A stretch of 37,455 nt of DNA, from contig CANGKZ010000046.1 in assembly GCA_947454705.1 (NCBI GenBank), positions 1 to 37,455 of the forward strand. Reading direction: 5' to 3'. This stretch comes from Verrucomicrobiota bacterium (GTDB taxonomy: Bacteria > Verrucomicrobiota > Verrucomicrobiia > Limisphaerales > UBA9464). The stretch's first letter is position 1; each line of letters begins with the position of its first letter. This document shows positions 6,366 to 37,455 of this stretch, one piece after another. The translations under genes and the position numbers were made by a program. The notes under the pieces are model-generated. The model did no database searches. It was not told where the DNA came from and saw nothing but the letters and a program-made list of their open reading frames with translations.

Positions 6366-6875
6366 GTGAACACCAGCCTGCGTTCCATTCCGCCGACGGG
6401 GGAGGCGCCGCCGGTGATGGAGTCCCTCGGAGCGCCGGCAAATCCGGCTCCGATTCAGAATTCGAATCCCGATCGCGGCTTGGGACGATTCCCAAACTGT
6501 TCCCCATCCGATCTCTGGATGCTGGTGGGGGGCGCGATGGTTGTTGCGTTGGGCCTTGCGGTGGTGGGTTGGTTTGAGCCGCGGGGGCAGATCTTTTTTC
6601 CGCGCTGCTGGCTGAATGAACACACGGGGCTGTTGTGTCCCGGTTGCGGATCCACGCGGGCGTTGCATGCGCTGCTGCATGGCGATGTCGCATCGGCCTG
6701 GAAGTTGAATCCCCTCGCGGTGCTGTCGGTGCCGGGGGTGACGTGGCTCGCAGTCCGGCACGTGCGCGGCGTCCTGACCGGCCGCTGGTGGCCGAATCCA
6801 TTCAGCCGCGGTTGGATGATCCTGGCCCTCATGGCGGTGCTGATGGTTTTTGGAGTCGCGCGGAATTTCGGTTGA
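6366..6875 (+). CDS. DUF2752 membrane protein
   Basis: This 169-residue protein carries the DUF2752 signature CPGCGSTRALHALLHGD at about 95-111. It is flanked by a helix at about 49-68, one at about 115-135 and one at about 147-165. DUF2752 proteins are small integral membrane proteins of unknown function, often encoded beside GYF_2 or TM2-type proteins, as here. The start is GTG 6366; a GTG-ATG pair at about 6414-6417 is an alternative that would shorten the variable N-terminus. The stop codon TGA (6873-6875) lies inside the GGTTGAGCC leader of the downstream family A repeat. Confidence 0.8.
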   Translation: MNTSLRSIPPTGEAPPVMESLGAPANPAPIQNSNPDRGLGRFPNCSPSDLWMLVGGAMVVALGLAVVGWFEPRGQIFFPRCWLNEHTGLLCPGCGSTRALHALLHGDVASAWKLNPLAVLSVPGVTWLAVRHVRGVLTGRWWPNPFSRGWMILALMAVLMVFGVARNFG

Positions 6876-7080
6876 GCCCGGATGCGGCGGTTGAACGGTT
6901 GAAAAGTTGAAGCGTTGAAGGGGAGGCCGCCGCTACCTCGGGGGGGTGCTCATTGGTTTGGAGTCCCGTTTTCAGACGGTTCAGGGCAGCGTGTCTCGGG
7001 GTATTCTGCCGCTTGATTTTCAACCGTTCGATGGACCCGAGTCCAACAGCCGAGCCGCGTAAACGCGGTACTCCAAACCT
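6870..7080 (-). repeat. Family A element, copy A1 (one arm lost)
   Basis: The left arm has the leader GGTTGAGCCCGGATGCGGCG followed by tandem octamers of the GTTGAANN type. The conserved core is present in reverse orientation relative to copies A2-A4: first GGAGTCCCG with CAGACGG, then CCGCGTAAACGCGG with TACTCC. The other terminal arm is missing, and the sequence after 7080 is unrelated up to the CATCTGCG segment at 7197. This element and the following segment account for the non-coding stretch 6876-7348 upstream of the tRNA. Confidence 0.75.
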
Positions 7081-7196
7081 TTGAGGAAATCCGCCGCAGA
7101 AATCCGGAGTTGCGAGCGAAAAGAACCGCAGCGCAGAGGCTGCTGAGACTCGCCCAGTAGGCGAATGAACGGGAGGCGCATCCGACGTCTCATAGT

Positions 7197-10052: not shown

Positions 10053-10320
10053 GGTTGAGCCGGGAAACGGCAGTTGAAGGGTTGAAAAGTTGAAGTGTTG
10101 AAGAGGAAAGCGGGTGCTGCTCCGGCGTATGGAGTACCGCGTTTACGCGGCTCTGCTGTTGGACGTTGGAGCGCCGGAAGGTCGAAAATCAACCGTCGGC
10201 ATGCCTCGAGACGCGCCTCCCCGAACCGTCTGAAGACGGGACTCCAAACGAACAGGGAAACCCGCGCGGCAGCGTCGGATTCCCCTTCAACGTTTCAACT
10301 TTTCAACCCTTCAACTGCCT
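10053..10320 (+). repeat. Family A element, copy A2 (complete)
   Basis: A leader (GGTTGAGCCGGGAAACGGCA) precedes a left arm of tandem GTTGAANN octamers from about 10072. The right arm ends at about 10320 and is its reverse complement (TTCAACGTTTCAACTTTTCA and onward). Between them lie TACCGCGTTTACGCGGCTC, which forms a CCGCG-TTTA-CGCGG hairpin, and CCGTCTGAAGACGGGACTCC, which forms a CCGTC-TGAA-GACGG hairpin. Outer GGAGT and ACTCC can also pair. Arm-to-arm length is 252 bp (10069-10320), the same as copy A3. It fills the 373-bp gap between lpxA and radC; no gene is seen in it. Confidence 0.85.
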
Positions 10321-18285: not shown

Positions 18286-19092
18286 ATGCTCTCCGGACCG
18301 ATGCTGTTTCCGGTCCTTCATGAAGACGATCAACTGCTGGTGCTGCACAAGCCGGCGGGCCTGGTGTGCCATCCCACCAAGGGCGACGCGTACTCCAGCC
18401 TGATCAGCCGGGTGCGAATCCATCTCGGCGCAGAGCAGGAGCCCCAGATGGTTCATCGGCTCGACCGGGAAACCAGCGGGGTGATGGTGTTTGGCAAAAC
18501 GGCCGAGGCGGCGGCGGAGCTGCGTCGACTGTGGATCGCCGGTCTGGTGACGAAGGAATACCTCGCGCTGGTTCACGGCGCGGTGGCGGAACCCTCGGGG
18601 GTGATCGATGGTCCGCTCGGACGCGACGAGTCGAGCCGGGTGGCGATCAAGGATTGTGTGCGGCCCGATGGGGCCTCGGCGACGACCCGATGGTGGCGCG
18701 TGCGGAATTTTGAGCGGAACGGAGTGGGGTACTCCCTGCTGCGGGTGCGACTCGATACCGGGCGGAAGCATCAAATTCGGATCCACCTCGCGACGTTCGG
18801 GCACCCGCTGGTGGGGGATAAATTGTATGGGGCCTCCGAGGAGCTGTACCTGAAGTTTGTGGAGCGTCGGATGGAACCCGCGGATCGCGAGCAGCTGATG
18901 CTGGCGAGTCAGGCTCTGCATGCGGCGCGGCTGTGGATGCCGTGGGAAGGCGAGGAGCGCGAGTTCGTGTCGTCCCCGGAGCCGCAGTTTCTGGATTTTT
19001 TGGAGGGGCGCCCGGTGGAGTGGCTTGAGGATCCGCACGATCCGCAGCGGCCGTGGGTGGGTGAAGCGGCGGTTGAAGGGTTGAAAAGTTGA
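18286..19092 (+). CDS. RluA-family pseudouridine synthase
   Basis: This 268-residue protein has the RluA-type catalytic motif HRLDRETSGVMVF near 57-69, with the catalytic Asp in HRLDRETSG. It also has KEYLALVHG near 89-97 and RKHQIRIHLATFGHPLVGD near 159-177, all diagnostic of 23S rRNA or tRNA pseudouridine synthases. There is no N-terminal S4 domain. The exact target uridine cannot be assigned from the sequence. ATG 18286 was chosen; the open frame before it does not look coding. The last eight or so codons (from about GAAVEGLKS) and the stop TGA lie inside family A copy A3, so the C-terminus appears to have been remodelled by the repeat. Confidence 0.93.
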   Translation: MLSGPMLFPVLHEDDQLLVLHKPAGLVCHPTKGDAYSSLISRVRIHLGAEQEPQMVHRLDRETSGVMVFGKTAEAAAELRRLWIAGLVTKEYLALVHGAVAEPSGVIDGPLGRDESSRVAIKDCVRPDGASATTRWWRVRNFERNGVGYSLLRVRLDTGRKHQIRIHLATFGHPLVGDKLYGASEELYLKFVERRMEPADREQLMLASQALHAARLWMPWEGEEREFVSSPEPQFLDFLEGRPVEWLEDPHDPQRPWVGEAAVEGLKS

Positions 19093-19320
19093 AGCGTTGA
19101 AGGGGAAAGCGGGGTTTTGCTCAGGCGTTTGGAGTCCCGCCTTTACGCGGCTCTGCTGTTGAACGGGGAAGAAGTCGACGGGTTGGAATTCCGTCGCTCG
19201 GATGACGTATCACGCGCCTACCCGAACCGTCTGAAGACGGGACTCCTAACGAATGAAAAAACCCTCGCGCCAACGTCGGATCCCCCTTCAACAGTTCAAC
19301 TTTTTGACCCTTCAACTGCA
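19069..19320 (+). repeat. Family A element, copy A3 (complete)
   Basis: This 252-bp element has left-arm octamers GTTGAAGG, GTTGAAAA, GTTGAAGC, GTTGAAGG and a right arm that is their reverse complement, ending near 19320. The core keeps GGAGTCCCG with TTTACGCGG (the CCGCG side is CCGCC here, so the first hairpin has one mismatch) and CCGTCTGAAGACGGGACTCC (second hairpin intact). The left arm overlaps the last codons and stop of the pseudouridine synthase gene. With the family B copies and a short tandem repeat it accounts for the 608-bp gap before hprK. Confidence 0.85.
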
Positions 19321-19347: not shown

Positions 19348-19594
19348 GACCGGTCGGTTTTGATCCCTCGTCCGGTTTCAAAAGCGGTGTCGACGCTGCG
19401 CTCTGCCACCGCACTCCAAACAATGACGGCGCGGTTCAATCGTCAATCTTCCTGCTCCCATCTGATCCGCGTTTTCTCTCCTCTGCGTCTCTGCGGTTGC
19501 TTCCAAGTCTCGGCCTGCGACTTCACACGAGGTCCGCAGACGAATATGGGGCGTGGGTGGAACCACGCCCTCCACCGAGACATGATCTCCGATC
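19348..19594 (+). repeat. Family B composite element, copy B1
   Basis: From left to right it has a GACCGGTCGGT lead, the AAGCGGTGTCGACGC to CACTCCAAA block (19379-19422), a CTCTGCGTCTCTGCGGTT segment, TCACACGAGGTCCGCAGACG, and a hairpin region GGGCGTGGGTGGAACCACGC-CCTCC. The same parts occur in two copies on the minus strand at 36731-37455, with a different order for the CTCTGCG segment, so this is a related but rearranged copy. It is non-coding. Confidence 0.7.
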
Positions 19595-27592: not shown

Positions 27593-27858
27593 GGTTGAAT
27601 CTCGAAACGGCAGTTGAAGGGTCGAAACGTTGAAGCGTTGAAGGGGGAAGCTGCGTTTGGCTCAGGCGTATGGAGTACCGCGTTTACGCGGCTCTGCTGT
27701 TGGACGGGGGATGAAACGAAGGGATTGAAATAAACCGTGCTGATGCCTTCGCACACGCCTCCCCGAACCGCCTGAAGACGGGACTCCAAACGAATGAGAA
27801 AACCGTCGCGGCAGCGTCGGATTCCCCTTCAACGCTTCAACTTTTTAACCCTTCAACC
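27593..27858 (+). repeat. Family A element, copy A4 (complete)
   Basis: The leader GGTTGAATCTCGAAACGGCA is followed by left-arm octamers (with GGTCGAAA as one variant). The core has TACCGCGTTTACGCGGCTC (hairpin intact) and CCGCCTGAAGACGGGACTCC (one mismatch in the second stem). The right arm ends at about 27858. The right end abuts the family D element. The stretch 27398-27592 before it shows no gene and must hold the promoter of the fusion gene. Confidence 0.85.
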
Positions 27859-35584: not shown

Positions 35585-36355
35585 TCAGTCTGCAGCAACG
35601 GGCTCGCGTTGGTGCGATAGGTGACGGGGCATGAGCCACGCGATGAGAAGGGCGAGGGGGATCTTGTAGATGGCCCCACTTGCAAACATGAGCAGCTGGT
35701 TTTCGAGGGATTCGAATCCATAGCTGTGCCGATTGGCCATTCCGTAGCGAGACGTCCAAAGGCTGGCCAGTTGAAGAACTCCGCCAAGGAGGGTGACGAC
35801 GAGCACAAAGCGGGTGCGGTCTGACAGCCAACGCGATGCCTTCTCCAATTGAGGTGACCCTTTTCCCTTCGCCAGAAGAACGGCTCCGCCCATCAGAAGA
35901 ATCCAGAAGACAAGATGGGTTCCGATCATGATCAAGTTTCTGGCCGTATTCAGCGATTGCCCTTGGTTTGCGTCCCATGGAATTGGCCCCAGGACCGCAA
36001 ACGTCAGTTGAGTGGCAGAGCTCGAAATGGAACTCCAGAATTGGGTCACCAGACACCCGATGGCCATCCACAACACGCGCCGCCCCCAGACCTCCGCCGG
36101 GTTGATCTGTTGGAATTCAGTGCCGATGGCTTTCGGTTCGCCGAGACGCTGGGCGGCGATTTGGTACGCCTCCTGAGCGGACAATCCCTTGGACCGCAAG
36201 TCGTCGATCGAGGTGCGCAGGTGCTCTTCGAGTTCTGCGAGTCCGTCCGAGGATACGGAAGGCTCTCCGGCGAGGCGTTGACGCCACTGCTGGATCGCGG
36301 ACTCCAGGGCAAAGCCGGAGTTCAAGCCCGGGCCGGTGCGGAGGTGGGATTCCAT
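35585..36355 (-). CDS. Membrane protein with N-terminal permease-prefix (HAAS-like) helical domain
   Basis: This 256-residue protein has an N-terminal helical domain (about 15-85; WRQRLAGEPSVSSDGLAELE and LSAQEAYQIAAQRLGEPKAI). Such permease-prefix or HAAS-type domains are often encoded beside PadR regulators. Four hydrophobic segments follow (about 95-125, 140-165, 180-200 and 220-245). It lacks the FtsX/MacB permease part that often follows this domain. ATG 36355 lies inside the end of the PadR gene (34-bp overlap), so the two are translationally coupled. It converges with the ankyrin gene across 80 bp. A membrane partner or target of the PadR regulator is the most reasonable guess. Confidence 0.75.
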   Translation of the reverse strand: MESHLRTGPGLNSGFALESAIQQWRQRLAGEPSVSSDGLAELEEHLRTSIDDLRSKGLSAQEAYQIAAQRLGEPKAIGTEFQQINPAEVWGRRVLWMAIGCLVTQFWSSISSSATQLTFAVLGPIPWDANQGQSLNTARNLIMIGTHLVFWILLMGGAVLLAKGKGSPQLEKASRWLSDRTRFVLVVTLLGGVLQLASLWTSRYGMANRHSYGFESLENQLLMFASGAIYKIPLALLIAWLMPRHLSHQREPVAAD

Positions 36356-36666
36356 AATTTGATCAGGGTGTTGTGAATGGTGAGCCAGTTGGCCTTCTCC
36401 TCGGTGAGTGCTTTGCCGCCCTTGGTGGTTAGCCGGTAGTATTTTCGCTCCCGGCCGCTCTCCGACTTCCGCCAGTCCGCGACAATCAACTTGTCCCGTT
36501 CCAGCCGGTGGAGCACCGGATACAGCATGCCCTCGGTCCATTGCACCTCTTCGCCCGAAAGCTCCCGGACCCGCTGGATGATGGCGTATCCGTAACTCTC
36601 CCCCTCGGCCAGAATCGAAAGCACCAACGGGGTCGATGACGCAGCAATCAAATCTCGTGGCAGCAC
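36322..36666 (-). CDS. PadR-family transcriptional regulator
   Basis: This protein of about 114 residues is a short PadR repressor. It has the family opening LPRDLIAASSTPLVLSILAE, SYGYAIIQRVRELS for the helix-turn-helix, EGMLYPVLHRLERDKL for the recognition helix and wing, and a GRERKYYRLTTKGGKALTEE wing segment. GTG 36666 gives the typical N-terminus; the frame upstream runs into repeat DNA and is not coding-like. Its ligand is unknown. It overlaps and presumably controls the downstream membrane-protein gene, a common PadR pair. Confidence 0.9.
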   Translation of the reverse strand: MLPRDLIAASSTPLVLSILAEGESYGYAIIQRVRELSGEEVQWTEGMLYPVLHRLERDKLIVADWRKSESGRERKYYRLTTKGGKALTEEKANWLTIHNTLIKLWNPTSAPARA

Positions 36667-36730
36667 GAAATGACTAATACCTAGAGCACTGAGGTATGCA
36701 AGCGGTAAGACGGGAATTGGGAACCAAGGG

Positions 36731-37008
36731 TCGAAGATCGAAGATCGTGTCTCGATGGAGGGCGTGGTTCCACCCACGCCCTAGATCCGTTTGCGGACCC
36801 CGTGTGAAGTAGCAGCGGATAGAAGGCACTGAGGGTAAAGGATGGCGCCGCGCGATTTTGGAGTGCGGTGGCAGAGCGGAGCGTCGACACCGCTTTCGAA
36901 ACCGTCGGTGGTGATAGACCGACCGGTGCCATCGCAATCGCCGTGAAAGCACATCCCCGAAATCTCTCTGCGTCTCCGCGCCTCTGCGGTTCATTTATCG
37001 TGTTGCGC
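36731..37008 (-). repeat. Family B composite element, tandem copy B2
   Basis: This copy has, on the minus strand, a CTCTGCGTCTC-type lead, ACCGGTCGGT, the AAGCGGTGTCGACGC to CACTCCAAA block, GGTCCGCAAACGG and a perfect hairpin. On the plus strand the hairpin is AGGGCGTGG (36759-36767) pairing with CCACGCCCT (36774-36782) over loop TTCCAC. The unit from 36754 to 37008 recurs at 37201-37455 with about 8 mismatches in 255 bp and no indels (447-bp period). It is non-coding; the small frames here are shadows. Confidence 0.85.
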
Positions 37009-37018
37009 GGTGGGCGTT

Positions 37019-37060
37019 GACCAAAGCGGCGTGGCGCCACGCTTCCCGCCGCACTCCAAA
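37019..37060. repeat. Family C palindromic repeat, copy 2
   Basis: This 42-bp unit carries the perfect 14-bp palindrome GCGTGGCGCCACGC (37029-37042). It matches the reverse complement of window positions 2-43. It lies in the spacer between the tandem family B copies B2 and B3. Confidence 0.75.
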
Positions 37061-37177
37061 ATCGTGCGGGTGAACTGGGTTGCGATCAGGCAACCCCAAT
37101 TAGACGGCGGATGCCTTTCCGCGTCCGTATGATCCGCCTCGTCCCCTCGGCGGCTACGGGGAAGGGGAAATCGCAGA

Positions 37178-37455
37178 TCGAAGATCGGAGATCGCGTCTC
37201 GATGGAGGGCTTGGTTCCACCCAAGCCCTAGATTCGTTTGCGGACCCCGTGTGGAGTAGCAGCGGATAGAATGCGCTGAGGGTAAAGGATGGCGCCGTGC
37301 GATTTTGGAGTGCGGTGGCAGAGCGAAGCGTCGACACCGCTTTCGAAACCGTCGGTGGTGATAGACCGACCGGTGCCATCGCAATCGCCGTGAAAGCACA
37401 TCCCCGAAATCTCTCTGCGTCTCCGCGCCTCTGCGGTTCATTTATCGTGTTGCGC
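37178..37455 (-). repeat. Family B composite element, tandem copy B3 (runs to window edge)
   Basis: This is the direct repeat of copy B2 at a constant 447-bp offset, cut at the window edge. The hairpin is AGGGCTTGG (37206-37214) with CCAAGCCCT (37221-37229) and the same loop TTCCAC. Both stem positions have changed together relative to B2 (G-C to T-A), so pairing is preserved. The repeat may continue beyond the window. Confidence 0.85.

Follow-up and report, generated by a model that had tools for sequence, protein, structure and literature searches.

A dispersed hairpin family with constant tag and loop in a Verrucomicrobiota genome, best read as orphan repeats of the REPIN/BIME type

Two hairpins at the right end of the window (the whole stretch of DNA analysed here, 37,455 bp, which is an entire contig, G000:C46) belong to a dispersed repeat family that is best read as orphan repeats of the REPIN/BIME type. 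This reading draws on 101 dispersed copies, a border at the tag, covarying stems, doublets of two hairpin types (A and B), the fold of a 184-base doublet and the absence of the repeat at a sister locus. The family is probably a non-autonomous element of the REP/REPIN type, whose tag and single-stranded DNA hairpin would be processed by a putative trans-acting enzyme of the HUH type. Feature coordinates are given in Table 1.

Table 1. Positions of the hairpins and repeat modules in the window.
Feature	Position	Strand	Remarks
B-type hairpin, copy 1	36755..36782	+	tag ATGGA; fourth pair from loop G-C; loop TTCCAC; DNA and RNA fold z ~-3
B-type hairpin, copy 2	37202..37229	+	tag ATGGA; fourth pair from loop T-A; loop TTCCAC
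B-type hairpin, third copy	19550..19575	-	tag GTGGA; G-C form
B end module (hairpin and ~33 conserved downstream bases)	36755..36815	+	68 copies found by downstream flank alone
First 447-bp unit, mosaic of several dispersed repeat modules	36712..37158	+	spacing 447; parts match at least 89 stretches of own genome
Second unit, ended at base 297 by contig end	37159..37455	+	94% identity over 297 bp; final 129 bases the same as in unit 1
Second dispersed module of the unit (TTTGGAGTGCGGTGGCAGAGC...)	36857..36904	+	other-strand matches at 123-183 and 19371-19431
Inverted counterpart of the window-start module (4-43)	37019..37058	+	98% complementary
Partial matches to the 447-bp unit at contig start	4..206	-	inverted matches within the window

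The initial annotation had described the right end of the window as a tandem 447-bp repeat in which two of about eight mismatches fall on one base pair of a hairpin stem. Realignment of 36754-37008 with 37201-37455 reproduced the eight mismatches in 255 ungapped bases and confirmed that two of them (36764 G/37211 T and 36777 C/37224 A) are partners of a single stem pair. If eight substitutions were scattered at random over 255 bases, the probability that two of them become partners in the 9-bp stem would be ~0.008, or ~0.003 if they must also remain complementary (calculated post hoc). The repeat extends further to the left, up to 36712/37159, with 18 mismatches over the full overlap, and all eight of the mismatches just mentioned lie before 36880. 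Since the contig start also matches the repeat and the last 129 bases are those of unit 1, the right end of the contig is read as an assembly break inside the repeat. These 129 bases may be one edge of the assembly graph shared with the first unit and are still compatible with a duplication in the assembly, whereas the part carrying the T-A stem differs from unit 1 and was assembled separately; the eight mismatches rule out assembly duplication for this part. Comparison of eight contig-end stretches for joining the contig further returned the family at ~75-93% identity and no exact shared end.

The two units are composite. Parts of the 447-bp unit match at least 89 stretches of the same genome (40 of 267 first-look candidates were scored); many of these matches begin at unit base 45, which is the tag, and several stop near unit base 104. 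The unit's second module also has short matches in loci of two sister genomes (L292 in G007, L293 in G006). A further mosaic module, the segment AACCGCAGAGGCGCGGAGACGCAGAG (one strand), lies at 36960-36996 and 37407-37443 and is common to the unit and the interior of longer doublets on other contigs (C15, C4, C53, C64). The unit as a whole is best read as a BIME-like mosaic that carries a solitary B end in tandem. The window also holds an unrelated repeat family in four places (6870-7085, 10053-10319, 19052-19316 and 27593-27858), with inverted ends of ~34-40 bases (GGTTGAAGGGTTGAAAAGTTGAAG... and its complement) resembling those of a miniature inverted-repeat element.

A third hairpin of the G-C form, placed by the initial annotation near 19549-19572, is real. 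All B ends in the window are solitary, all three hairpins appear intergenic, and the two tandem copies carry A as the first tag base (ATGG, not GTGG). Folding of copy 2 gave z = -3.80 as DNA and -3.06 as RNA. That the repeat is a private feature of the tandem pair was not borne out. The pattern GTGGAGG N4 GGTTCCACC N4 CC, in which three stem pairs are unconstrained on both sides, found 101 exact-anchor copies dispersed over the own genome and none with the reversed control. The same pattern had 24 matches in the sister species G006 and none in 37 other relatives, and six of the seven genus members had no copy of the family hairpin.

Copies were also collected independently of the hairpin pattern by the 33-base downstream flank alone, which recovered 68 of them from fetched stretches of the own genome (one without a hairpin) and none when 20 of the 62 stretches were shuffled; the set is nonetheless partly hairpin-dependent, as the stretches had been fetched earlier by searches with the 447-bp unit or the hairpin. 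Among these copies constancy is 94-100% in the columns of the tag, the loop and most of the stem, and it falls to 78, 71 and 46% over the three bases that precede the tag on its 5' side. This drop marks a sharp border of the element at the tag. The tag GTGGA is present in 61 of the 67 flank-anchored copies, and the loop TTCCAC likewise in 61.

The pair that differs between the tandem units, fourth counting from the loop, is never mismatched in the same 67 copies: 46 have G-C and 21 have T-A. Six other stem pairs are Watson-Crick in 63-67 of the copies. Across 25 distinct hairpins 92% of the stem cells pair in register, as against 31-56% when the partner strand is shifted by 1-3 bases. The third pair from the loop behaves differently (T-A 38, G.A 26, T.G 1, C-G 1, C.A 1). 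The initial annotation had held that stem mismatches as frequent as loop changes would speak against maintenance, and by that rule the third pair fails: it is not Watson-Crick in 28 copies, while the loop deviates from TTCCAC in 6, so that the stem is not uniformly kept. Maintenance of the hairpin as a structure is thus supported in the main, by the covarying fourth pair and the in-register pairing, but not for every pair. Likewise, the two coordinated changes are real stem partners but need not be two point mutations within the tandem pair: as 21 copies with a T-A stem exist, conversion by another copy is no less likely a source. A weak tree built from 57 non-stem columns requires at least 11 changes between the G-C and T-A states (13-21 in 200 shuffles), and because copies may convert and recombine, the 11 changes are not a count of independent compensatory events.

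The hairpins of the own genome are frequently arranged in doublets. Among 119 hairpins in the fetched stretches (up to two anchor mismatches allowed), 29 neighbouring doublets have their tags pointing outward, 22 further neighbour pairs face each other (gaps of 37-41 bases in 12, 80-81 in five, 9-10 in three and more than 650 in two) and 11 have the same orientation; many copies, including those of the window, are solitary. In 26 of the 29 doublets an A-type hairpin, with the stem GGGCGCGG/CCGCGCCC, is combined with a B-type hairpin, and these fall into two homologous sets of 20 and 6. The hairpins of A-B doublets are 131-167 or 281-364 bases apart, with inverted ends of ~28 bases. All 26 doublets start with GTGG and 25 end with CCAC, positions at which the search tolerated few changes, and their flanks are unlike each other except among members of arrays. 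One doublet of 184 bases forms a single long hairpin when folded as single-stranded DNA (-54.9 kcal/mol, z = -6.18), and none of 200 shuffled sequences folded as well. Arrays occur at C33:50310-50680 (period ~172 bases), C6:11202-11830 (~222), C15:1754-2524 (~372), C53:20321-20783 (~372) and C30:38770-40571 (154-245).

The same tag and loop recur in other genomes on different stems. A scan of GTDB genomes with the hairpin pattern returned at least 83 stretches, and 80 listed loci were analysed. Among the matches listed, many are from a Candidatus Sumerlaeia MAG and several from a Lentisphaerae MAG and the sister VK_bin-2510; Pontiellaceae, Pelagicoccus, Verrucomicrobiales, Kiritimatiellae, Eisenbacteria and Deltaproteobacteria records contribute one or two listed loci each. 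These carrier names are record titles, to which MAG contamination may contribute. The stems found elsewhere (e.g. GGTCGGG/CCCGACC, GGACGGG/CCCGTCC, GGACAGG/CCTGTCC and GGATGCC/GGCATCC) are mostly paired around an unchanged tag and loop. Over the listed loci, 55 distinct stems from 210 copies, including six chance-like single matches, have on average 4.82 of six pairs (shuffled 3.17, maximum 3.65), and 40 distinct stems (72 copies) that lie outside the fetch pattern have 4.83 of six Watson-Crick pairs (shuffled 2.75, maximum 3.42). After TGGAG and a perfect stem of at least six pairs, the loop is TTCCAC in 73 of 76 hairpins in the own genome and in 74 of 92 in Sumerlaeia; the reversed tag gave one hairpin in each. 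The loci behind the 40-stem and loop counts had been selected because they contain one or more such hairpins or, in the case of some own-genome stretches, the unit. In the Candidatus Sumerlaeia SKW40 loci (L172, L207, L224, L230 and others) the hairpin often stands in direct tandem with a ~44-base period and short spacers; L207 has 63 hairpins in part of the locus, and the own genome has inverted doublets instead.

Distribution of the family is patchy. Within the phylum TGGAGG N6 TTCCAC N6 CC occurs in 11 of 387 genomes, 103 times in the own genome and 9, 6, 4, 3 and 2 times in five others; the five genomes with a single match are not counted as carriers, as they do not exceed the reversed control (13 matches in 12 of 387 genomes). 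Six single matches on genome contigs (L159, L190, L195, L206, L214, L219), with two to four of six pairs, were taken as chance, and carriage by viruses was likewise dismissed, as the three viral-contig matches have a chance-like 3, 4 and 3 of six Watson-Crick stem pairs.

A sister genome, G001, offers a comparison at the locus itself. The repeat of the window occupies the annotated upstream side of a gene for a PadR-type regulator (36325-36669, minus strand). G001 has a PadR protein that is 97% identical, and its upstream side is free of the repeat: the locus aligns ungapped with 35592-36729 (1138 bp, 81%), where the alignment ends, and no family hairpin is present in the fetched G001 PadR locus. 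The window repeat is therefore absent there. The right flank lies beyond the contig, and an insertion with both flanks and a matching empty site was accordingly not obtained. The sister loci L292 (G007) and L293 (G006) have no paired family hairpin; L293 has one loose text match.

REP elements are usually taken to require RAYT transposases. Y1_Tnp matches were present in all 19 genomes of the first search among relatives, with one in the own genome (L063, G000:C26:62346-62693), a 198-aa open frame near a GTAG-tagged GTAGACCCAGGCCT hairpin that is rare in this genome (one exact copy, five within two mismatches). As its locus holds this different hairpin, the gene was rejected as the cognate enzyme. 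None of the 62 fetched Y1 loci from own, related and carrier genomes, a subset of the Y1 places listed, has a hairpin of the family (L239, L243 and L245 have loose text matches that are not hairpins of the family), and 12 of them have a perfect GTAG-tagged hairpin. At L062, L079, L238, L250, L256 and L274 GTAG-tagged hairpins surround the Y1 gene, in most cases in several copies. The GTAG loci of genus members and other carriers are REP-RAYT-like, and with Y1 genes beside GTAG-tagged hairpins in the same genus and in the own genome, a REP-RAYT system occurs in this clade. No Y1 match was found in the carriers G053 (98% complete, nine copies of the hairpin), G066 (96%, four copies) and G197 (91%, three copies), nor in G045. 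MAG gaps are often located in repeats, and a cognate gene may therefore be missed in any one genome. No recurrent transposase-like gene stands beside the hairpins either, the ORF clusters of 80 loci having at most six members and looking ordinary by eye.

By analogy with known REP systems, the hairpin would be one end (B) of an element, with a 5' GTGG tag followed by the stem-loop, and the fuller element would be an inverted doublet of an A and a B hairpin with the tags at its outer ends. In the single-stranded state a putative HUH-type enzyme would bind tag and hairpin, reading the constant tag and loop and accepting almost any sequence in a mostly paired stem. Cleavage near the tag and strand transfer would disperse the doublets, and recombination among copies would build arrays and exchange stem types. 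The choice left by the initial annotation between an RNA and a processed DNA structure is thus narrowed, as we infer, to processed single-stranded DNA of the REP type. Against this reading stand the lack of a cognate transposase at the fetched Y1 loci, the mismatches at the third pair, the ATGG tags of the two tandem copies and the lack of an empty site with two flanks. A wider claim seems doubtful to us, namely that a REP-like class extends over several bacterial phyla in which GTGGAG and TTCCAC are recognised almost irrespective of the stem, and that it is mobilised by an enzyme other than the resident Y1 (RAYT), perhaps through pairing of tag and loop within or between hairpins. TCCAC of the loop does complement the GTGGA tag; tag and loop are both constant, however, so covariation is uninformative on such pairing.

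It is unlikely that the hairpin acts as RNA, for instance in protecting mRNA ends, limiting read-through or binding a protein via the TTCCAC loop, with selection keeping the pairing. The stable RNA fold (z = -3.1 on both tandem copies), the covarying stems with their constant loop and the position of the window copies between genes, upstream of the PadR gene, would all fit such a role. By eye, however, no T-run follows the stems, which continue into TAGATCCG and TAGATTCG, so the hairpin is no plain intrinsic terminator; Rfam covariance models over the window returned one tRNA at the gathering score and nothing else, so that a known RNA family was rejected; and inverted doublets with outward tags, the border at the tag, arrays and a patchy high copy number resemble a mobile repeat. 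Doublets with inverted ends of ~28 bases, and carriers without a Y1 gene, would also suit a miniature inverted-repeat element of a non-HUH (e.g. DDE) transposase, with the hairpin ends as terminal inverted repeats and double-stranded transfer. We consider this improbable: each end is itself a hairpin with a covarying stem, which would be superfluous at a double-stranded end, the doublet flanks show no evident target duplication by eye, and the ORFs beside the hairpins at the 80 loci form no recurrent transposase-like cluster, as judged by eye. Very unlikely, in our view, is a non-mobile origin, in which local duplication and gene conversion would spread an enzyme-less hairpin and the paired change in the window would be a conversion tract. 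The T-A copies could indeed serve as donors, stem type is partly clustered on the weak tree (11 changes versus 13-21 when shuffled) and arrays have several periods, but sharp-ended doublets at unlike flanks, 101 copies versus none in six of seven genus members and the absence at the sister locus all call for dispersal.

Preferring the REP-type reading, we note that a high-copy family of REP anatomy with near-complete carriers lacking a Y1 match turns the movement of orphan REPs into a testable question. The substrate is defined by its tag and loop, and carriers that have Y1 genes can be compared with those that lack them. The many natural stems that surround one fixed tag and loop also offer a ready data set on how such an enzyme reads its substrate.

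REPs are characterised by a GT(A/G)G tag with a palindrome, and REPINs as close inverted doublets of these (PMC3686654). REPs are also almost exclusively intergenic, as the three copies of the window appear to be. With GTGGA in 61 of 67 copies, a variable palindrome directly downstream, 101 copies against a control of zero and inverted doublets, the family is REP- and REPIN-like by sequence; it departs from REP-RAYT systems, in which the same hairpin flanks the Y1 gene, at the Y1 loci searched. A search of openly accessible literature found no report on the family, and six exact hairpin sequences had no match there. Among the closest known systems are the GTGG REPs and REPINs of the Pseudomonas fluorescens complex, which share a GTGG tag directly before a short hairpin, high copy number and inverted doublets with related ends; those REPs flank their own RAYT genes, and their loops are of the kind of TT (PMC3686654, PMC3116915). 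The present family has a constant TTCCAC loop, asymmetric A and B ends and longer doublets, spaced more widely than the "close" doublets mentioned in PMC3686654, and no adjoining RAYT gene was found. BIMEs, mosaics of alternating REPs, resemble it in their regularly spaced hairpins of alternating orientation, additional modules and arrays, and differ in tag, loop and modules from the family and its 447-bp unit (PMC2817692). GTAG repeats abound in Opitutus terrae, a verrucomicrobium (PMC3733652). CGTC-tagged REPs, which seem to lack a dedicated transposase (PMC3733652), are likewise high-copy tagged palindromes without a cognate enzyme, the tag here being GTGG. Tagged perfect hairpins near Y1 genes are also found at the GTAG REP-RAYT loci of genus members and other carriers, with a GTAG tag and other loops. 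TnpA-REP proteins differ in how far they read tag, loop or bulge, and in the Marinomonas system a GTGG-tagged substrate is cut at CA, less well, and at CC (PMC8266576). Set beside these systems, the constant TTCCAC loop, the asymmetry of A and B ends and the stems that change between genomes are the family's own traits.
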